Source of the DNA: Chloroflexota bacterium
GTDB taxonomy: Bacteria; Chloroflexota; UBA11872; VXOZ01
Assembly (NCBI GenBank): GCA_028874195.1
Contig: JAPPLM010000043.1
Location: 62,001-126,000 of the forward strand
DNA: 64,000 nt
Reading direction: 5' to 3'
Shown: one piece after another, positions 16,626 through 43,965 of the stretch
Numbering within the stretch: the first letter of the stretch is position 1
Layout of the letters: each line of letters begins with the position of its first letter
Translations under genes and position numbers: made by a program
Notes under the pieces: generated by a model
The model's database searches: none
What the model was told of the DNA's origin: nothing
Seen by the model: the letters and a program-made list of their open reading frames with translations, nothing else

Positions 16626-18206
16626 TTGAACATTCCCGATTTGAACTTTGGCGATCTGTTCGAGGCGCTTGCACAAACCATCCCGCAGCGAACGGCGATC
16701 ATTTACGGCGATGCCGAGTTGACATGGCGAGAACTCGACGAGCGCTCCAATCGCCTGGCCAGGAAGCTGATGGAGGCCGGGCTTCGGCCCGGTAGCAAAG
16801 TTGCATTTTATCTACGGAACAGCCCTGCTTATCTTGAGCTGTTCGTCGCCTGCTCGAAGGCACGTCTGACCCATGCCAATGTCAACTACCTCTACGTCGA
16901 CAATGAACTTTTCCATGTGCTCGACAATTCGGATGCCGAAGCTGTCGTTTATGACGCTGAGTTCGGCGGGCATGTTGAAACCCTGGCGCCCCGTTTGCCC
17001 AAGGTCCGGCTCTATCTCGCAGTCGGTGACGAGGCCACAGGCAAGCCTGCCGAGAGCTTTGAGAAGGCCTGTGCTGAAGGAGATGCGGCGCCGCTCGGGA
17101 TAGAGCGGTCCGGGGATGATCTCTACTTTATGTACACCGGCGGTACAACCGGCTATCCCAAGGCAGTCATGTGGCCGCACAAGCACAGGATTGCCGTGAT
17201 CGGCATGGCAAGAGGGGACGATGCGGCAAGGCATGCTGAAGCCGTCGCGGCAAGCCCAGTCTCTGTTCTGCTGCCCGCGTGCCCGCTCATGCACTCAACC
17301 GGATTCACCACCGCGGTCGCCAGCCTCCTGAGCGGCGGCACCACGGTCCTGCTGCCCACCAAGTCATTCGACGCCGAGGTTTGCCTGCGGGCCATCGACG
17401 ACCACAAAGTGCAGACTGTTGCAATCGTCGGCGACGCATTTTCAGTGCCTATTCTGGAGCACTTGACCGATCGAAGCGCGGATTACGATCTTTCTTCCGT
17501 CAGGGTGATCACTTCGGCTGGGGCCATGTGGAGCGCTGAACGCAAGCAACAACTCATGGCGCACTTTCCCAACGCGTCGATGAACGATTCGCTGGGGTCC
17601 AGCGAAGGCTCCAGGCTCGGATCAAGATCATCCAAGAACGGCGATGAGGTTGAAACCGCGCGCTTTCAGCTCGGCCCTCACGCCAAGGTGTTCACGGAAG
17701 ACTTCCGAGAAGTGGAACCGGGCTCCGGTGAGGCTGGGCTGATTGCCACGGCGGGCCCAATACCGCTTGGCTACTACAAGGATGATGAAGGCACAGCAAA
17801 GACCTTCCCTACCATCAATGGCGTCAGGTACTCCATAGCCGGCGACTGGTGTCGAGTCGAGAGTGACGGCAGCATTACCCTGTTGGGCCGGGGCAACAAC
17901 TGCATCAACTCCGGTGGTGAGAAAATCTATCCGGAGGAAGTCGAGGAAGCGCTGAAACTGCACCCACTGATTCATGATGTCGCGGTGATCGGCATCCCCG
18001 ATGAACGTTGGGGGCAGGCCGTCGCGGCCGTGGTGAACTCGGAAAAGCACCGGAGCCTAGCCATGCAAGACGTCCGATCACACTTGAGCGGCAAGCTGGC
18101 TAGGTACAAGCACCCGAAACGGATCGAATTCGTAGATGGTGGTTTTCGCCACGCAAACGGAAAGGTCAACTACCGGCTTGTCAGAAAGCTCATGGGCGTG
18201 GAGTGA
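16626..18206 (+). CDS. acyl-CoA synthetase (AMP-forming)
   Basis: A 526-residue adenylate-forming ligase. It contains the phosphate-binding loop YTGGTTGYPKAVMW near residues 170-183, the C-terminal hinge region GRGNNCINSGGEKIYPEEVE, and the catalytic lysine block ANGKVNYRLVRK near the end. It activates a carboxylic acid to an acyl-CoA through an acyl-AMP. The start is a TTG at 16626 with GAGAGG upstream; there is no ATG nearby that keeps the first strand. It follows the PQQ dehydrogenase, so it may activate the acid derived from that alcohol. Its 3' end overlaps the convergent selenoprotein gene by 37 bases. Confidence 0.9.
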   Translation: MNIPDLNFGDLFEALAQTIPQRTAIIYGDAELTWRELDERSNRLARKLMEAGLRPGSKVAFYLRNSPAYLELFVACSKARLTHANVNYLYVDNELFHVLDNSDAEAVVYDAEFGGHVETLAPRLPKVRLYLAVGDEATGKPAESFEKACAEGDAAPLGIERSGDDLYFMYTGGTTGYPKAVMWPHKHRIAVIGMARGDDAARHAEAVAASPVSVLLPACPLMHSTGFTTAVASLLSGGTTVLLPTKSFDAEVCLRAIDDHKVQTVAIVGDAFSVPILEHLTDRSADYDLSSVRVITSAGAMWSAERKQQLMAHFPNASMNDSLGSSEGSRLGSRSSKNGDEVETARFQLGPHAKVFTEDFREVEPGSGEAGLIATAGPIPLGYYKDDEGTAKTFPTINGVRYSIAGDWCRVESDGSITLLGRGNNCINSGGEKIYPEEVEEALKLHPLIHDVAVIGIPDERWGQAVAAVVNSEKHRSLAMQDVRSHLSGKLARYKHPKRIEFVDGGFRHANGKVNYRLVRKLMGVE

Positions 18207-19075
18207 GCCGGAGCTTGCGTTCCCGCCGCTCGCTTGCGCCGCAGCGCCCGACGTTCGTCGCCTTGCCGGCGCAAGACGTCTAGGTCGGCTTCGCGGATGG
18301 CCATGTAGTTGTCCCGCCAGCTTTCGTCCCCGCCCCAACGGTAGGGCAGGCGCGCCGTGGTGCGCGGGCCGGCGGCCGTCTCAAACAAAGCCATCGCGGA
18401 CGCCACCACCTGTCTCTGCATGACGCCATCCCAAGGCCGGCCGCAGGGGTTGCCGAGCGGGAAGTCCGCAAAGGCGAAGCGCGGCACCCCGCAGTGCTCC
18501 ACGATGTCGAGGGCGGAGCCGAGCACCACGGTGGCGATGCCGTCCGCCTCCAGGCCGCGCGCGACCAGACTCACGGTCTGGTGGCAGACCGGTCATAGCG
18601 GTACCAGCAAGGCGATGTCTGCGCCATCCTCCCGGCAGCGGCGGAGAATCTCCGGGGCGTCCTCAGTGCGGGTGCGGCGCTGGCTGTATTCCGTGGGCAC
18701 GCAGTGGAACCGCTTGGCGAGCGCGCCCAATCGGCCCTCGTCCACCATCGCCCGCAACGGCGCAAGGGGCAGGAAGGTCTCGCGGTCATCAAGATGGGTG
18801 GCTTTCTTGTCCCAGGCCAAGTCATTGGCGAACAGCGGCGGCGCTGCCGCCGTGGCAGCGGAGGCAACGGCCCGGGGGTCCGTGGCTCGGCGGTCGTGGA
18901 GGGCCGAGGTGGTGATGATGGCAAGGGTCGATTCCGCCAGCGGCTTGGCCGACTTGGTGAAGGGAACTTCATCAAAGTGCGCCCACACATAGGGCTTGGC
19001 ATAGCCTTGGGCCTCGTAGTAGCGCTTGGTGCGCGCCATGTAGGCGACCGGCGGATGGGCAGTGGCAGTTGACAT
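18170..19075 (-). CDS. predicted selenoprotein, glycine/betaine reductase component B (GrdB)-like family
   Basis: One continuous frame of 301 codons from ATG at 19075 to TAG at 18170, interrupted only by a TGA at 18593-18595. Sequence on both sides fits one family: before it REDGADIALLVPL, after it PVCHQTVSLVARGLEADG, then FADFPLGNPCGRPWD. Read as selenocysteine, residue 161 gives U-P-V-C-H-Q, a redox UxxC motif; relatives with C-P-V-C-H-Q at this place are known in Proteobacteria. A hairpin 17 bases after the UGA has SECIS features (separate entry). Related GrdB proteins act in reductive cleavage of amines in anaerobes; the job of this aerobic branch is not established. The upstream frame remains open, but the protein family starts near MARTKRYYEAQGY, so this start is preferred. 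Confidence 0.8.
18565..18581 (-). promoter_or_regulatory. candidate bacterial SECIS hairpin after in-frame UGA
   Basis: Immediately after the UGA (18593-18595) the RNA can form CCAGAC-CGUGA-GUCUGG, a perfect 6-bp stem with a 5-base loop. The loop begins 17 bases after the UGA and has G at its second position, which agrees with the published bacterial SECIS pattern (short apical loop 16-37 bases after UGA with G among its first two bases). A competing 7-bp hairpin, CGGUCUG-CCAC-CAGACCG at 18574-18591, overlaps it. Confidence 0.6.
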
Positions 19076-19151
19076 GGACGATTCGAGCCTTGTGTATTGA
19101 GGGCTGAGCGCCGATGGTACACGATTGCCCGTTGTTCGAGACGCACTCCTG

Positions 19152-19886
19152 ATGCTGCTGACCTTCATCCTCGCCACCGTGTTCGCCACGGCAGTGCTCT
19201 CCGGTGTGCTGGGCATGGCCGGGGGCATGATCCTAATGGCGATCCTGGTCTCCACCCTGAGCGTAGCGGGGGCCATGATCGTGCACGGGGTGGTGCAGGC
19301 GGTTTCCAACGGCTCGCGCGCCTGGTTTCTGCGCCATCACATCCAATGGCGCATCCTGCCTGCCTACACGCTCGGGGCTGCCGCCGCCCTGGCCGGGTTT
19401 ACGGCACTGAGCCTGGTGCCGAACGCCGGCGTGGTGCTGATCCTGGTGGGCGCCTTTCCCTTCGCCGCGCGTTGGAACGCCCGGCTTTCGGGGCTCGATG
19501 TCACCCGGCCCGCCACCACCCTGGCTTGCGGGTTCACCGTCACCGCCGCGCAGCTACTCGCCGGAGCCTCCGGCCCCTTGCTGGATGCGTTCTACTTGAA
19601 CACGCCCCTCAGCCGCCAGCAGGTGGTCGCTTCCAAGGCCATCACCCAAACCCTCGGCCACTTGGTCAAGCTCTTCTACTACGGCCTCATCATCGGGGTG
19701 GCCGAGGAACTGCCCGGCTGGTTCTTCGTCCTAGCGGCCATGCTGGCGGTGGCCGGCGCTCGGTCCGGGGTGGCGCTGCTCCATCGTTGGAACGACGAGC
19801 GCTTCCGCACGGTCAGCGGCCGGGTGATCCTGGTCATTGCGGCGGTGTGCGTGGCCCGCGGCGCGTACGAACTGGTGGTGGCTTAG
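19152..19886 (+). CDS. TauE/SafE family membrane permease
   Basis: A hydrophobic protein of 244 residues with about seven or eight membrane segments. It opens with the glycine-rich first helix (LSGVLGMAGGMILMAIL) typical of the TauE/SafE sulfite exporter family, and the second half repeats the pattern (AAQLLAGASGPLLDAF). Members move sulfite, sulfonates or other organic anions across the inner membrane. I take the ATG at 19152; a TTG at 19125 would add nine residues. It is divergent from the selenoprotein gene, 76 bases away, and may share a promoter region with it. The substrate is unknown. Confidence 0.8.
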   Translation: MLLTFILATVFATAVLSGVLGMAGGMILMAILVSTLSVAGAMIVHGVVQAVSNGSRAWFLRHHIQWRILPAYTLGAAAALAGFTALSLVPNAGVVLILVGAFPFAARWNARLSGLDVTRPATTLACGFTVTAAQLLAGASGPLLDAFYLNTPLSRQQVVASKAITQTLGHLVKLFYYGLIIGVAEELPGWFFVLAAMLAVAGARSGVALLHRWNDERFRTVSGRVILVIAAVCVARGAYELVVA

Positions 19887-22001: not shown

Positions 22002-22031
22002 CCACTACTCCCCCTTGAGGGGGAGTAGTGG
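22002..22031. repeat. perfect 13-bp inverted repeat at end of deacetylase gene
   Basis: CCACTACTCCCCC and GGGGGAGTAGTGG are separated by TTGA. The hairpin contains the last codons and the TAG stop of the deacetylase gene. No T-run follows on either strand, so it is not a standard terminator; it may stabilise the mRNA end or be a REP-like element. Confidence 0.6.
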
Positions 22032-22943
22032 CTCGAACGCGGACAGCGCCTCGGCGTGCAGCGCCGCGCAGCGACCGAGCGCAGCCAAGTCGTAGCCGCC
22101 TTCCAGGGCGGAAACCACTCGTCCGCCAGCGTGGGTTTCGGCGAGATCCACGATGAATTCGGTGATCCAGCGGAAGTCCTCATCGTCGAGCAGCAAGCCG
22201 CCCAAGGGATCGTCGCGGTGGGCGTCGAAGCCCGCTGACACCAGGATCAGGTCCGGGCGGTGGGCGTTGACGGCTGGTGCCCAGTCCCGTTCGATCGCAC
22301 GACGAAACGCCGCGCCATCCGTGCCCGCCGGCAAGGGCGTGTTGACGATGTTGGGCGCATCGACGTCAACGTAGCGGTAGGGGTAGAAGGGGTGCTGGAA
22401 GCTGGAGCAGACCAGCGCCTCGGGATGGTCCTTGAAGGCATCGACGGTGCCGTTGCCGTGATGCACGTCGAAATCGAGGATGGCCACCCGGTCCACCTGC
22501 TCAAGCGCCTCGACCGCGCCCAGCGCGATGCTGTTGTAGTAGCAAAAGCCCATGGCCGCGCCGGCCTCGGCGTGATGGCCGGGCGGGCGGACGGCGCAAA
22601 AGGCCGATTTGTCCACGCCGTCCAGCACCGCCTGCACCGCGCCCGTCACCGCGCCGGCGGCCAAGGCCGCGGCTCGCAAGGTGCCTGGACTCATGGCGGT
22701 GTCCGGGTCCAACCGCACCAAGCCGGATGCTGGGCTGACCGAGTTCAGTTTGGCCACGTAAGCCGGGGCATGGACCGCCGCCAAGCATTCCGCCTCAATG
22801 GGCTGGGCGGCGCGGCATTCGAAACGGTCCATGAGGCCGCAGGCTGACAGGCTTTGGTTGACGGCCCGCAGCCGATCCGGGCGCTCCGGGTGGCCCCGCT
22901 GCATCTCGTGGCGCAGGCAGTCGTCGTGGGTGTAGAAGAGCAT
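22005..22943 (-). CDS. histone deacetylase-fold hydrolase
   Basis: A 312-residue member of the arginase/deacetylase fold. It contains RPPGHHAEAGAAMGFCYYNS (near residue 120), the zinc-ligand block DFDVHHGNGT (near 160) and SAGFDAHRDDPLGG with the second metal aspartate. In bacteria such proteins are acetylpolyamine amidohydrolases, acetoin-utilisation deacetylases or protein deacylases. There is no signal peptide. It follows the giant carboxylase gene by 20 bases on the same strand, so the two are probably cotranscribed. Which acylated substrate is used is unknown. Confidence 0.88.
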   Translation of the reverse strand: MLFYTHDDCLRHEMQRGHPERPDRLRAVNQSLSACGLMDRFECRAAQPIEAECLAAVHAPAYVAKLNSVSPASGLVRLDPDTAMSPGTLRAAALAAGAVTGAVQAVLDGVDKSAFCAVRPPGHHAEAGAAMGFCYYNSIALGAVEALEQVDRVAILDFDVHHGNGTVDAFKDHPEALVCSSFQHPFYPYRYVDVDAPNIVNTPLPAGTDGAAFRRAIERDWAPAVNAHRPDLILVSAGFDAHRDDPLGGLLLDDEDFRWITEFIVDLAETHAGGRVVSALEGGYDLAALGRCAALHAEALSAFEPLLPLKGE

Positions 22944-22963: not shown

Positions 22964-25900
22964 CTAGGCGGCCTCGAGGGGGCGCACCACGAATAGCAGG
23001 TCGCCCGCATTCACCTGCTGCCCGTTGCCCATGTTGATGCGCGTGACTTCAAACTGCAGGGCCGGATCATAGAGGCTCGCTTCGCCGTTGAAGTCCTTGA
23101 GGGCCAAGGGGGTGAAGATCTTCATCGCCTCAAGCTGGCAGAGCGTGGCATCGACCGCAATCCGGTCGCCGACGGATACGAATTCCGGTTCCGATGGCGA
23201 CGGGCTGGTGTAGAAGATCGCCGCCGCCGGGGAGAGCACCTTCAGCTCGTCGCTGCCGTCAATGCCGATGCTCTCCAAGTTGAAGGCCGAGGCGGACTCG
23301 CCAGCCCCCGCTTCGATCTCCTCGATCAATCCTTCAACATCGGTGCGGCGCAGGAATTCCGGCAAAAAGCCGGTGTCGTAGTCACCTTGGCGGAACACTT
23401 CATCGGCGAGCACACGCCTCAACAGCGGAATGTTGGTGCAGATGCCCGTGATGCGCACCCGGCTTAAGATGTCGGCCAGCCGCTTGATGGCGGCCTGACG
23501 GTCCTTCGCATGCACGATGACCTGGGCGACCATGCTGTCGTAGTACGGCGAGATGAACTTGCCGGGCGCAGCGATGGTGATGACGTCAACGTCCTCTTCG
23601 GCGGGAAACAGCGCATCCTCGATGGTGCCCGGATGGGGGCGGAAGGACAGCGCTCCCTCGCCGTCCAACTGCACCCGCTCGGCATTGATGCGCGCCTCGA
23701 TGGCGTAGCCCTCGAACTTCGGCTCAAGCTCGGCAATGGACTCGCCCGCGGCGATGCGGAACTGCTCGCCAACGATATCGATGCCCGACACCCATTCGGT
23801 GACCGGGTGCTCCACCTGCAGGCGGGTGTTCATCTCCATGAAGTACACCGCGCCGGCGGCGAGGTCGAAGATGAACTCCACCGTGCCCGCCCCGACGTAG
23901 CCCACTTCGTCCGCAATGGCCGCCGAGTAGGTCAGCACGTCCCGGCGCAGATCCTCCGGCAGCATCGTGGACCCGGACTCCTCGAACACCTTCTGCTTGT
24001 CCCGTTGCACGCTGCAATCACGCAGGCCCAACACTAGGGTGTTGCCCAGGGTGTCGCGCAGCAACTGCACCTCGATGTGCCGCAGCGACGTGACGTACTT
24101 CTCCAGGTAGACGTCGCCGTTGCCGAAGGCGCTTTGCGCCTCGGCGGTGACCCGATGGAAGAGTTCGAAGAACTCAGCGCCGCTTTCCACCACCTGAATG
24201 CCCTTGCCGCCGCCCCCGTGAACCGCCTTGATGAGCACCGGGTAGCCAATTTCCTCGGCCACCTCGGCGGCCCGTTCCGCGTTGGTCAAAATGCCGTGGC
24301 TGCCCGGAACCACCGGCACGCCCAAGCGCAGCGCGGTGTTGATGGCGTTGGACTTGTTGCCCATGGTCTCCATGCTGGCGACGGGCGGCCCGATGAAGTT
24401 CAAGCCCCGGCTGCGGGTGAGCTCCGCAAATTGGGCGCTTTCGGACAGGAAGCCGATGCCCGGATGCAGCGCGTCCGCCCGCTCTTGCTCGGCGATGCTG
24501 AGCACGCTGCGGGCGTTCAGGTAGCTTTCGTCCGGGGTGTTGCCGCCGATGCAGACCAGCGTGTCCCGTTTGCCGAGCTGATCGGCCACCGCCGACTCCA
24601 TGTCCGGGTCTGATTGCACCAGGACCACTTCCAAGCGATGGCGTTGGGCCACCCGCACCAGCTTGGCCGCCGTGCAGCCGCGGGCGTGGATCAGCAGCCG
24701 CTTGATGGGCCGGATCAGGTCGGCGTCGGTGTAACGGGGCGGGGCGGCAACTTCCGGGGCTTCCTGGTCGAGCACGCCCGACAGCACTCGCCGAATCACC
24801 GCATCAATCGATTCCTTGGGCAGCGGAATGTCCGGGTCAACCCGGCGCAGGTCGTTGTCGAGTTCGAGGTGGAAGGGGTGTTCCACCAAGCCTTGCATGG
24901 ACTCCGGATTGGTTGACAAATAGTTGGCGAGAATTGAATTCAGCGGCAGGTTGCTCGGCACCACGATCTGCCCCGCGAAGGGGATGCTGGCCCCGGAGAA
25001 GTAGTAGGTCTGCACCAAGGGGTGGGTGACGAAGCTGGCTTGGGCGCCGCCGGTGCAATCACCGTAGCCGAACACGATGATCGGCAGGTCGTGGTCGCGC
25101 ACGAAGCGGGTGATGCGGTCGTTGACGGCGGCCATGGAGAACAGCGCCCCCGCCCCTTCCTTGGTCTGCATGCCGCCCGACGAGATGAAGCAGATCACCG
25201 GCAGGTGCCGGGTCGCGCAGACCACCAGCAGCTTGCAGAACTTCTCCGCGCTGGCCATGTCGAACGCCCCCGCCTGGAAGGCCACATTGGACAGCACCAG
25301 GCCGCAGGGAATTTCCTCCGCCCCCGCCTTGAAGCGGGCCGTGCCGGTCACCACGCCGCAGGGCGGGAGGTCTTGGTTCAACGCCGCCTCGATGGAGTGG
25401 CGGAACCCCGGGAAGGTGCAGGGATCCGAGCTGATGAGATCCCCGAAACGTTCGCGCCAGCCCGTGAAGAAGGCGTCGATGATGTCTTGATGGCTAAAGC
25501 GATGGGCACCCTTGGCACGGCGCAGCACGTTCTGCATCAGCAGGTCTTGGTAGGCCACGTTCAGGCGGTACCAGAAGTCCTTGCGCCGGCCGATGTTCTT
25601 GGGCGCGATGCGGCCGTTGTAGGCCTTGCCGGTGCGCTCGGAGTGCACGTAGGACTCCAGCAGGTGCTCGAACAGGTAGGTCACCACCACGAACAGCGCA
25701 TCGGCCAAGTCGGGAAAGCGGGTGCGCTTCCACTCCTCAACGGCGCGGAAAAAGGCGGGGCTCTTGGTCTTGGGCAAATCCTGCACCCTCAAGTACCAAT
25801 CAAGCACTTGCGCCCGCAACCGATTGGAAATGCCTTTCGATCCATCGTCGGATGCATCAAGGGTCAAGGCACCGGCCGCCAACGACGATTCCAGCAACTG

Positions 25901-27841
25901 TCCCACGGTGCTTCGGGACAGCGCCTGCGCCGACTGCGCCTCTTCGGCGATGCTGTCGAGATTGGCCACGATGTGGTCGTACACCACGTCGAACAGCAGC
26001 AGGTTCTCGCACTCCTTAAGGAAGTCTTGGCGCAGATCATCGGCGATCAGCACGTCGAGCACGGTCAGCTCGCTGAGCTGCACCGGCGAGCCGACGGCGC
26101 CAGCCCGGTCGATGAACTCGGCGTAGCGCCCCTCAAGGACCTCACGGTTGGCGCGGATGGACGTTCGCCCGCCGCCCGCCGAAGCATTCCCGCCATTGCC
26201 TAGCGAAACCCCGGTCAGCGCCAAGTTCAGCTCAGCGGTCAGTTGGGTGGATAGGTAGGTTTCGGACTTGTTGGCCGTGCCCCCGACGCGCAGCAGCTTC
26301 TTGCCCTCGTGGCTGAAGTGCTCATAGGCGGTGCTGAAGAACTCGCGGTCCCGTCGAATCGCCCGGATCAGTCCGACCGGATTGCGCACCTCGGCGACGC
26401 GCAGAATGTAGCGGGTGTCCTCCGGGTCGGCCAGCAGCTCCCGAAGCCCCTGCAGGTTGCCCGAAACCTCTCCCTTCCAGCGATTGTAAAGGTAAGCGCC
26501 CAAGGTGGAGATCAAGTTGGCGCGGGCGCGTTGGTAGTTGCGCCTCGGCTCGCCAAGGATCATGGTCGCCAAGCGGCCCCTTTCATCCTGCAGCGCCTGC
26601 TTCTTCTCGTTGTAGTTGCGCCACGCCTTGGACAGGCCGTCGTCATAGACCACCTTGTCCGGATCCTGCATCCACTTCAGGAAGGTGCGCCGCCGTTCCC
26701 GGTCGGCACGCTGGGCGAGTTCGCCCTTGGGCAGGTCGCGGTCCGCCAGCCGTCCGTATTGATGGGTGCTGGTGGCCTTGATGCGCTGGCGCACCTTCAG
26801 GTAGCGCAGGTAGCGGAAGGCGACGCCGAAGACGTTCAGGTACTCGGTGGGGTTCTTGGTCAGGGTGAGCGAGGCGCTGTCCTGCATCTTCTGCAGTTGC
26901 GGCGAGGGGTTGAGGTAGCGCTGCAGGCTTTGCTGATAGTGGTTGATGATGTACGGGTTCTGGGCAACGAACTGCTTGGCGCGCTCCTCCACCGACTGCA
27001 GGCCAGCCACGATGGCCGAACGCAGGTTGGGCAGCTTGTCCGGCTCCGAAGGCGTGTAGTCGATCACGCCGTCGATGTTCCCCTGCATGAACAGCTCGAA
27101 CGGCGACAGCCCCACGTACTTGGCGCACTCCTGCCAAGACAGGTTCAGGCGCCGGGCGATGTTGGCCAGCGACGGCGGCTGGATGGTGCTGAACACCCCG
27201 TCGGCGACCGACAGGATCATGTTGCTGGCGGCCAAGGGAATGGCGCCGCCGGAATAGCCGAGGCCGTAGATGACGCCGACATTGGGCACATCGACGTTGC
27301 TCGCCTCGGTGATGAGCCGGGAGATGCTGTGCGCTTGGTTGTTGCGGTTGGCGTCCTCACGGGCGTCGGCACCGGGCGTGTCCATGAAGGTCACGACGGG
27401 AAGGCGCTGCTTGGCCGAACCCTCCAGGAAACGCGCCGCGTCAAGATGATGCTCAGGCCCCCAAACACCGTTCTCCACCGATCGGTCCTGGGCGATGAAG
27501 CCGATCAGCCGCGCATCGCCATCAAAGTCCATCTCCAGCGTGGCTGCGTAGAAAGGCCCTTTCGACACCTCGCTTTGCACCCTGCCGAGCTGGCGGATCA
27601 CCTCCGGGGCCGGGGTGCGGCTCTTGTCTTCGGCCGGGGCTACCACCGCCTCGATATAGGAATCGATGTCCAAGCTCTGCAGCCGCTGGGTGCGGCGGGC
27701 AATGGTGGCACGGCGCAGCAGCCCAGGCAGGGCTTCTTCGCTGGCCACGCTTGGAAACAGCGAGAACTCCTGTGCGAGGCGCTCGGCGATCAAGTAGAGC
27801 CGGTCGCCTTCGGCGGCTCGCTTTTGCACTCGGGATGGCAC
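22964..27841 (-). CDS. single-chain biotin-dependent acyl-CoA carboxylase, domain order CT-alpha, CT-beta, BC, BCCP
   Basis: A 1625-residue fusion of all parts of a biotin carboxylase system. Residues about 95-300 resemble AccA (VVTFMDTPGADAREDANR; GLGYSGGAIPL). Residues about 300-800 have no domain I recognise. About 810-1030 resemble AccD (CFISSGGMQTKEGAGALF; GDCTGGAQASF). About 1045-1510 form biotin carboxylase with ATP-grasp loop KAVHGGGGKGIQ, and the C-terminus is a carrier domain whose EAMKI puts biotin on Lys1574. It should carboxylate an acyl-CoA using ATP and bicarbonate. The start is GTG at 27841, directly after a stop in frame; no strong ribosome site is visible. The acyl-CoA used is unknown. 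Confidence 0.88.
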   Translation of the reverse strand: MPSRVQKRAAEGDRLYLIAERLAQEFSLFPSVASEEALPGLLRRATIARRTQRLQSLDIDSYIEAVVAPAEDKSRTPAPEVIRQLGRVQSEVSKGPFYAATLEMDFDGDARLIGFIAQDRSVENGVWGPEHHLDAARFLEGSAKQRLPVVTFMDTPGADAREDANRNNQAHSISRLITEASNVDVPNVGVIYGLGYSGGAIPLAASNMILSVADGVFSTIQPPSLANIARRLNLSWQECAKYVGLSPFELFMQGNIDGVIDYTPSEPDKLPNLRSAIVAGLQSVEERAKQFVAQNPYIINHYQQSLQRYLNPSPQLQKMQDSASLTLTKNPTEYLNVFGVAFRYLRYLKVRQRIKATSTHQYGRLADRDLPKGELAQRADRERRRTFLKWMQDPDKVVYDDGLSKAWRNYNEKKQALQDERGRLATMILGEPRRNYQRARANLISTLGAYLYNRWKGEVSGNLQGLRELLADPEDTRYILRVAEVRNPVGLIRAIRRDREFFSTAYEHFSHEGKKLLRVGGTANKSETYLSTQLTAELNLALTGVSLGNGGNASAGGGRTSIRANREVLEGRYAEFIDRAGAVGSPVQLSELTVLDVLIADDLRQDFLKECENLLLFDVVYDHIVANLDSIAEEAQSAQALSRSTVGQLLESSLAAGALTLDASDDGSKGISNRLRAQVLDWYLRVQDLPKTKSPAFFRAVEEWKRTRFPDLADALFVVVTYLFEHLLESYVHSERTGKAYNGRIAPKNIGRRKDFWYRLNVAYQDLLMQNVLRRAKGAHRFSHQDIIDAFFTGWRERFGDLISSDPCTFPGFRHSIEAALNQDLPPCGVVTGTARFKAGAEEIPCGLVLSNVAFQAGAFDMASAEKFCKLLVVCATRHLPVICFISSGGMQTKEGAGALFSMAAVNDRITRFVRDHDLPIIVFGYGDCTGGAQASFVTHPLVQTYYFSGASIPFAGQIVVPSNLPLNSILANYLSTNPESMQGLVEHPFHLELDNDLRRVDPDIPLPKESIDAVIRRVLSGVLDQEAPEVAAPPRYTDADLIRPIKRLLIHARGCTAAKLVRVAQRHRLEVVLVQSDPDMESAVADQLGKRDTLVCIGGNTPDESYLNARSVLSIAEQERADALHPGIGFLSESAQFAELTRSRGLNFIGPPVASMETMGNKSNAINTALRLGVPVVPGSHGILTNAERAAEVAEEIGYPVLIKAVHGGGGKGIQVVESGAEFFELFHRVTAEAQSAFGNGDVYLEKYVTSLRHIEVQLLRDTLGNTLVLGLRDCSVQRDKQKVFEESGSTMLPEDLRRDVLTYSAAIADEVGYVGAGTVEFIFDLAAGAVYFMEMNTRLQVEHPVTEWVSGIDIVGEQFRIAAGESIAELEPKFEGYAIEARINAERVQLDGEGALSFRPHPGTIEDALFPAEEDVDVITIAAPGKFISPYYDSMVAQVIVHAKDRQAAIKRLADILSRVRITGICTNIPLLRRVLADEVFRQGDYDTGFLPEFLRRTDVEGLIEEIEAGAGESASAFNLESIGIDGSDELKVLSPAAAIFYTSPSPSEPEFVSVGDRIAVDATLCQLEAMKIFTPLALKDFNGEASLYDPALQFEVTRINMGNGQQVNAGDLLFVVRPLEAA

Positions 27842-42474: not shown

Positions 42475-43965
42475 TCAACCCGCTGCAGAGCCCTCAGGCA
42501 CCGGCCCGCTGCCAGTCTCTTCCACATCGTCCAAGCCACCCACGACCTTCATCGGCCGTTTCTCCCCGACGCCGATCCGCACCAAGTCCCACAGCAGCAG
42601 GACCACTCCGAAGGTCATCAGCACCCCGAACGCCATGCGCCACCACATCGCCTCCACGAACCAAGGTTGGGTCTGGCCCTCGAAATAGGCCTGCCAAGTG
42701 GAGCCGCCGATGGCACGCTCCACGAATGACTGCTCGTAGCCGGCGATCAGGAGGGCGACGGTCATGCCCATCATGCCGAGATGGGTGAGCCCAAGCGCCC
42801 ACTTCCAGCGCCAGCCGCCCTGCAGTCCGGCGGACATCCAGGCATTGCCCCGCAGCCGCTGCACGGCGACGTAGATCATCGCCACGATGATGGTGACGTA
42901 GGCGCCAAAGAAGGCCAGGTGCCCGTGGGAGGACGACCACTGCGTGCCGTGGGTGTAGAGGTTGATCTGCGGCAGCGTCTGCATGAATCCCCAAACGCCA
43001 GCGCCCAGGAAGTTGCCGAAGGCGTGCGCGATCAGCCAAGCGAGCGCCGGATGGTTGTTGGCCCGGAAGGCGTGCCGCCCGGCGTCGTAAACGGCATGCA
43101 CCACCATCGCCACCAGGGGTATGGGCTCGAGCGCCGAGAAGAAGCCGCCAACGCCAAGCCAGTATTCCGGCGTGCCGATCCAGAAATAGTGATGGCCGAG
43201 CCCCAGGATGCCCGAGCCGAACATCAGCGCCACCTCGATGTAGAGCCAAGTGGTTACGATGCGGCGCCGGGCGCCGAGGGTCTTGATCAGCCCCCAGGCC
43301 ATGATGCAGCCGACCAGCACCTCCCAAGTGGCCTCCACCCACAGGTGGATCACCCACCACCACCAGTACTGGTCCATGGGCAGGTTGGTGGTGTAGAACA
43401 TGCCGGCCAGGTAGAGGCCCGCCAACGCCACCAGGTCGAGCACCAACACACCGGATATGCCGCTCCAGCGCCCCGCCAGGAAGGTGCCGGCCACGTTGTA
43501 GAAGATGGCAAGCATGCAAACGACGATGCCGATGTCCGCCCACCGGGGCGCCTCGATGTACTCCCGGCCCTCGTTGATGAGCCAGAGCGTCCAAGCGTCC
43601 CCGGGGCCGCTTTGCACGAACAGGTACACGACGACGACAATGGTCACCGCCACTGTAAACACCCAGAAGGCGGCCTTGGCAATGCGCGGGCCCGCCAGCG
43701 GCACGCCGGCCTCGTCCTCCACCAGCCAGTAAATGGAGCCGATGAAGCCGTACAGCATCCACACCACCATGGCGTTGATGTGCACCATGCGGTTCACGTT
43801 GAAATCAAGGACGCCGAACAGGAACGCCGGGTCAAGGAACTGCCAAGCCGCCAGCAGCCCGAACAGCATCTGCGCCAGGAACAGCACCATGGCCACGGCG
43901 AAGTAGTGCACCGCCAATTTCTGGCCGATGCGCAGCGAAGCGAATTCAAGCCGGCCGAAGGTCAT
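42475..43965 (-). CDS. norB: nitric oxide reductase subunit B
   Basis: A 496-residue, 12-helix haem-copper oxidase family protein. It shows the histidine ligands in VHINAMVVW, HLWVEATWEV, GLGHHYFWIG and HGHLAFFG, and glutamates near the catalytic site. The absence of an N-terminal quinol-oxidising extension and the presence of a separate norC show the cytochrome-c-dependent type. It reduces two NO to N2O. Start ATG 43965 overlaps the norC stop as ATGA. No norD or norQ, which usually assemble the enzyme, lies next to it. Confidence 0.92.
   Translation of the reverse strand: MTFGRLEFASLRIGQKLAVHYFAVAMVLFLAQMLFGLLAAWQFLDPAFLFGVLDFNVNRMVHINAMVVWMLYGFIGSIYWLVEDEAGVPLAGPRIAKAAFWVFTVAVTIVVVVYLFVQSGPGDAWTLWLINEGREYIEAPRWADIGIVVCMLAIFYNVAGTFLAGRWSGISGVLVLDLVALAGLYLAGMFYTTNLPMDQYWWWWVIHLWVEATWEVLVGCIMAWGLIKTLGARRRIVTTWLYIEVALMFGSGILGLGHHYFWIGTPEYWLGVGGFFSALEPIPLVAMVVHAVYDAGRHAFRANNHPALAWLIAHAFGNFLGAGVWGFMQTLPQINLYTHGTQWSSSHGHLAFFGAYVTIIVAMIYVAVQRLRGNAWMSAGLQGGWRWKWALGLTHLGMMGMTVALLIAGYEQSFVERAIGGSTWQAYFEGQTQPWFVEAMWWRMAFGVLMTFGVVLLLWDLVRIGVGEKRPMKVVGGLDDVEETGSGPVPEGSAAG

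Follow-up and report, generated by a model that had tools for sequence, protein, structure and literature searches.

The window, a 64,000-nucleotide stretch of Chloroflexota DNA, contains a gene that comparison with its relatives supports well as a genuine selenoprotein gene of a PrdB-like UxxC family. We consider it highly probable that the in-frame UGA of this gene is read by means of SelB, tRNA-Sec and a hairpin, and that the product is a genuine selenoprotein of the family, likely a soluble selenol/thiol reductase that works on its own. The frame runs from an ATG at 19075-19073 to a UAG at 18172-18170, and its 301 codons contain a single interruption, the UGA at 18595-18593. The protein sequence around this codon, LLVPL-U-PVCHQT, forms a UxxC motif. 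The first-pass annotation of this DNA gave the coordinates correctly and left the minus strand unstated.

Table. Positions of the selenoprotein gene, its recoding elements, its neighbours and related genes (window coordinates unless another contig is named)
Feature	Position	Strand	Remarks
PrdB-like selenoprotein gene	18170..19075	minus	301 codons and UAG stop; translated with TGA=U; 80 homologous loci
In-frame UGA, Sec at residue 161	18593..18595	minus	motif UPVCHQT; UxxC with Cys164
bSECIS hairpin	18564..18582	minus	7-bp stem ACCAGAC/GUCUGGU, loop CGUGA
Acyl-CoA ligase	16626..18206	plus	Pfam PF00501/PF13193; convergent with the selenoprotein gene
TauE/SafE-type permease	19125..19886	plus	Pfam PF01925; divergent, 49 bp from the selenoprotein start
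Haem-copper oxidase subunit I	42619..43917	minus	PF00115; evidence of oxygen respiration
selD (L022)	G000:C63:53216-54145	minus	one in-frame TGA

A search for relatives, run on a single genome for each species, yielded 238, and 80 loci were retained. Together with the window sequence they make 81 aligned sequences, and the Sec site is occupied by UGA in 78 of them (a count in which the residue of L030 was read by eye), by Cys in three and by any other residue in none. Two extra Cys forms come from Alphaproteobacteria in culture, where plasmids of Roseomonas haemaphysalidis and Haematobacter massiliensis carry them. The first-pass annotation had claimed that Cys-bearing relatives exist and had suggested checking that homologues carry only Cys or Sec at residue 161; the alignment bears out both. 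It had also suggested looking for selA, selB, selC and selD elsewhere in the genome, and all four were found. The genome has one tRNA-Sec, scoring 67 bits, above the curated cut-off, with ARAGORN in agreement; the searches for selB, selA and selD gave 377, 571 and 381 bits, respectively. The product of selD is probably a selenoprotein as well.

Ten bases separate the UGA from the hairpin ACCAGAC-CGUGA-GUCUGGU. All seven pairs of its stem are Watson-Crick, and its loop of five bases lies 17 bases past the UGA with G at the second position, the geometry that the first-pass annotation had described. By itself, the hairpin is only mild evidence for selenocysteine, because the folding energy of the 38-nt hairpin region is unremarkable (z -0.83) and a comparable hairpin of at least 6 bp follows 14 of the 1784 TGA triplets in the window (0.8%). 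A window-wide scan for frames that are split by a TGA and have a hairpin of this sort returned 20 candidates; a UxxC or CxxU motif is present in none of the other 19, which look like chance occurrences. What raises the hairpin of the selenoprotein gene above chance is the restriction of its site to UGA or Cys, together with covariation that is confined to Sec genes. The five inner pairs form in all 77 Sec genes checked and in none of the three Cys genes, all of which break one and the same A-U pair. The codons of Gln166 and Leu170 covary: 63 genes combine CAG and CTG, 13 combine CAA and TTG, and one combines CAG and TTG, which leaves a G-U pair. At one locus (L053) a double change has turned an A-U pair into U-A, through replacement of Thr by Ser and of Ser by Gly, and the outermost pair alternates between C-G and U-A among Sec genes. 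Ser169 is encoded by AGU in 65 of the 77 Sec genes, in a set where, over the whole genes, AGC outnumbers AGU 2.5-fold.

The sequences in this comparison are related, and the Fisher value is not a tally of independent events; the contrast between Sec and Cys genes is the stronger point, though the Cys genes number three. The comparison indicates that the hairpin is under selection in Sec genes and is retained only where a UGA needs recoding, which is the prediction for a bacterial SECIS. The first-pass annotation had proposed a check for such an element, and the conservation of the hairpin by covariation answers it. A pseudogene, with the UGA as a normal stop or as a Cys codon altered by sequencing error, has a negligible chance: a single base does separate UGA from the Cys codons UGU and UGC, but the UGA is common to 78 sequences from independent assemblies and several phyla, and it is accompanied by a covarying hairpin that is missing from the Cys genes, so the homologue and hairpin comparisons refute this reading. 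Because the site holds UGA or Cys only, the hairpin covaries and the machinery is present in the genome, the decoding of the UGA as selenocysteine, which the first-pass annotation had inferred, is as firmly established as sequence evidence allows.

In the AlphaFold model (pLDDT 93), Sec161 lies between a strand at 154-158 and a helix at 162-177. The residues Pro162, Cys164, His165, Gln166, Asp190, Arg199 and Asp204 are invariant. A Foldseek comparison with the PDB gave no match at E under 0.001, and the family profile gave no match to PDB sequences. In the mechanism that we propose, the selenolate of Sec161, placed at the helix start after the central strand, would attack an electrophilic substrate; Cys164 would resolve the selenenyl intermediate as an Se-S bond, which a cellular thiol system such as thioredoxin could then reduce.

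GrdB and its relatives act on C-N bonds, which they break together with a partner that has a pyruvoyl or another carbonyl group. For a GrdB-like operon, cleavage of the C-F bond in fluoroacetate has been proposed (PMC10838667). On these grounds, a reductive bond-cleaving role is a reasonable guess for the family. Our first guess at its chemistry, drawn by analogy and given somewhat less than an even chance, would be that a C-N, C-S or C-halogen bond is split reductively in the manner of PrdB and GrdB, without a pyruvoyl partner. A bolder proposal, which we regard as rather unlikely, is that the family in oxygen-respiring bacteria is a self-sufficient selenoenzyme that breaks carbon-heteroatom bonds by reduction and needs no pyruvoyl partner; to our knowledge, reactions of this type are known only from anaerobes. 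The main alternative to bond cleavage is a general selenoprotein of stress defence that reduces thiol-disulphides or peroxides, with the UxxC motif serving as a redox couple of the thioredoxin type within another fold. The motif itself is consistent with this role, as are the scattered and unlinked gene contexts and the occurrence of Cys forms in aerobic Alphaproteobacteria; we nevertheless lean against it, since Foldseek shows no thioredoxin- or peroxiredoxin-like fold and the many invariant residues distant from UxxC point to a pocket for a specific substrate.

The best curated family for the window protein is PrdB (TIGR04483; 79.1 bits, E 3.4e-22), whose model is matched by all 57 aligned members. 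Profile-based alignment to two PrdB proteins of clostridia extends over 210 columns with 99.8% probability, placing Sec on Sec, and UxxCH is found in both. The differences from clostridial PrdB comprise an identity of 24-27%, a score (79 bits) that falls short of the equivalog cut-off of 300, additional parts at the N- and C-termini, and a host genome without PrdA. The proteins GrdB, GrdF and GrdH of the glycine, sarcosine and betaine reductases (PF07355, TIGR01917/01918) show weak homology to the window protein over the Sec domain; in contrast to it, their models cover about 430 positions, and it falls far under their cut-offs. The NCBIfam models of GrdF, GrdH and GrdB score 24-32 bits on it and Pfam GRDB (PF07355) scores 15.9 bits, under the gathering cut-off of 22. 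A Pfam GRDB search of the genome gave no match anywhere, and the controls were equally silent, so that its outcome carries no weight. The name 'GrdB-like' used in the first-pass annotation reflects a weak homology, but PrdB is the closer family. The plasmid-borne proteins of Roseomonas and Haematobacter are 46-49% identical to the window protein and have the active-site motif in common with it, but carry Cys where it carries Sec. The RefSeq name of these relatives is 'glycine/sarcosine/betaine reductase selenoprotein B family protein'. In Roseomonas haemaphysalidis, the gene of the Cys form adjoins a selO gene (L109 5881-7353).

PrdA is the pyruvoyl subunit required by D-proline reductase. It had no match in the genome, in a search that gives 976 bits in a control plasmid of Terrisporobacter. 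Two haem-copper oxidase genes in the genome, one of them inside the window, support oxygen respiration by the host, in agreement with its earlier description as apparently aerobic. It is thus very improbable that the protein is a true PrdB, that is, a D-proline reductase subunit acting with pyruvoyl PrdA: the top family match and its agreement across all aligned members would fit such a role, but the score stays far below the equivalog cut-off, PrdA is missing where the control is positive, and the host respires oxygen. A score of a quarter of that cut-off, taken with the lack of PrdA, points to a homologue of PrdB that is not a D-proline reductase. A Sec-containing prdB with no adjacent prdA is present on a plasmid of Peptoclostridium acidaminophilum (L111 4007-4720).

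The family is already known and not new. A Sargasso Sea survey lists, under 'proline reductase PrdB', 42 genes that contain Sec and have a UxxC motif (PMC1088965), and the PrdB entries of the GOS survey comprise 235 Sec and 110 Cys forms from 38 samples (PMC2398784). By these survey accounts, Sec-containing PrdB relatives are one of the most abundant groups of selenoproteins in the sea (PMC1088965, PMC2398784), and selenocysteine in a protein of an aerobe is for this reason a weaker surprise than the first-pass annotation had claimed. The survey family is like the present one in its UxxC motif, PrdB homology, marine habitat and largely Sec-containing membership; unlike it, the survey family consists of environmental sequences named PrdB, with no PrdA partner shown in the survey entries (PMC1088965, PMC2398784). 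The window protein has both features by which the GOS survey entry defines its PrdB family, namely homology to PrdB, at the E value given above, and a UxxC motif, here UPVC (PMC2398784). From homology, motif and habitat, as far as the survey entries describe them, we infer that the marine PrdB set is the present family. In the literature, we found no study of 'PrdB-like' proteins and none testing the function of the family.

The genes of the acyl-CoA ligase and the selenoprotein overlap by 37 bp tail to tail (18170-18206). In a close relative, L028, the acyl-CoA ligase and a PQQ-type gene are missing at the corresponding place, which suggests that the overlap is recent or local. The first-pass annotation had placed the selenoprotein next to the TauE permease and the acyl-CoA ligase; a link with them is not supported, since neither gene is kept in other loci, which have other neighbours. 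A conserved operon partner was also rejected: clustering of the flanking ORFs of relatives and a Pfam scan of the 129 nearest neighbours revealed no recurring partner gene, with neighbour ORFs chosen by a simple longest-ORF rule that may miss a small partner. Several neighbour families occur in a few loci each: CoA-transferase III in nine, HpcH/HpaI in six, and luciferase-like proteins and enoyl-CoA hydratase in five each. Elsewhere in the window, on the minus strand, a 1625-residue ORF (22964-27841) fuses carboxyltransferase-like domains with a biotin carboxylase and a biotinyl domain, and a histone-deacetylase family protein is encoded at 22005-22943.

From the class, 41 genomes were compared, five of them from congeners, and the gene is present in the window genome only. 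SelB exceeds its cut-off in 36 of the same 41 genomes, the window genome among them. The selenocysteine trait is thus widespread in the class, and the gene probably came in later, by horizontal acquisition; loss of the gene in the class relatives is the less likely explanation. The nearest sequences outside the close kin, L029 and L030, belong to Pseudomonadales-type MAGs and have 87-89% DNA identity over the gene, with unrelated flanks. In the tree, the window sequence groups with L027, L028 and L029 at full support, beside other Pseudomonadales sequences; the clostridial PrdB branch has a length of 7.2 and an unreliable placement, and the row of L030, which was wrongly cut in this tree, is to be ignored. 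The locus is syntenic in two other MAGs, with 97% identity over 12.3 kb in L027 and about 95% in L028. A misbinned contig was considered: the synteny in the two MAGs shows that the context is no artefact of a single assembly, but both carry a name no finer than Gammaproteobacteria. Four genomes each contain two copies of PrdB-like selenoprotein genes that are distant in the tree (L066 and L093, L068 and L102, L088 and L094, L090 and L103).

The window offers a clear and well-situated case, from a near-complete genome, of a selenoprotein family that the entries of the marine surveys rank among the commonest. The label 'proline reductase' is misleading for its protein, because the genome is without PrdA and the host respires oxygen. 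The case also shows the gene moving among lineages in which the selenocysteine machinery is already present.
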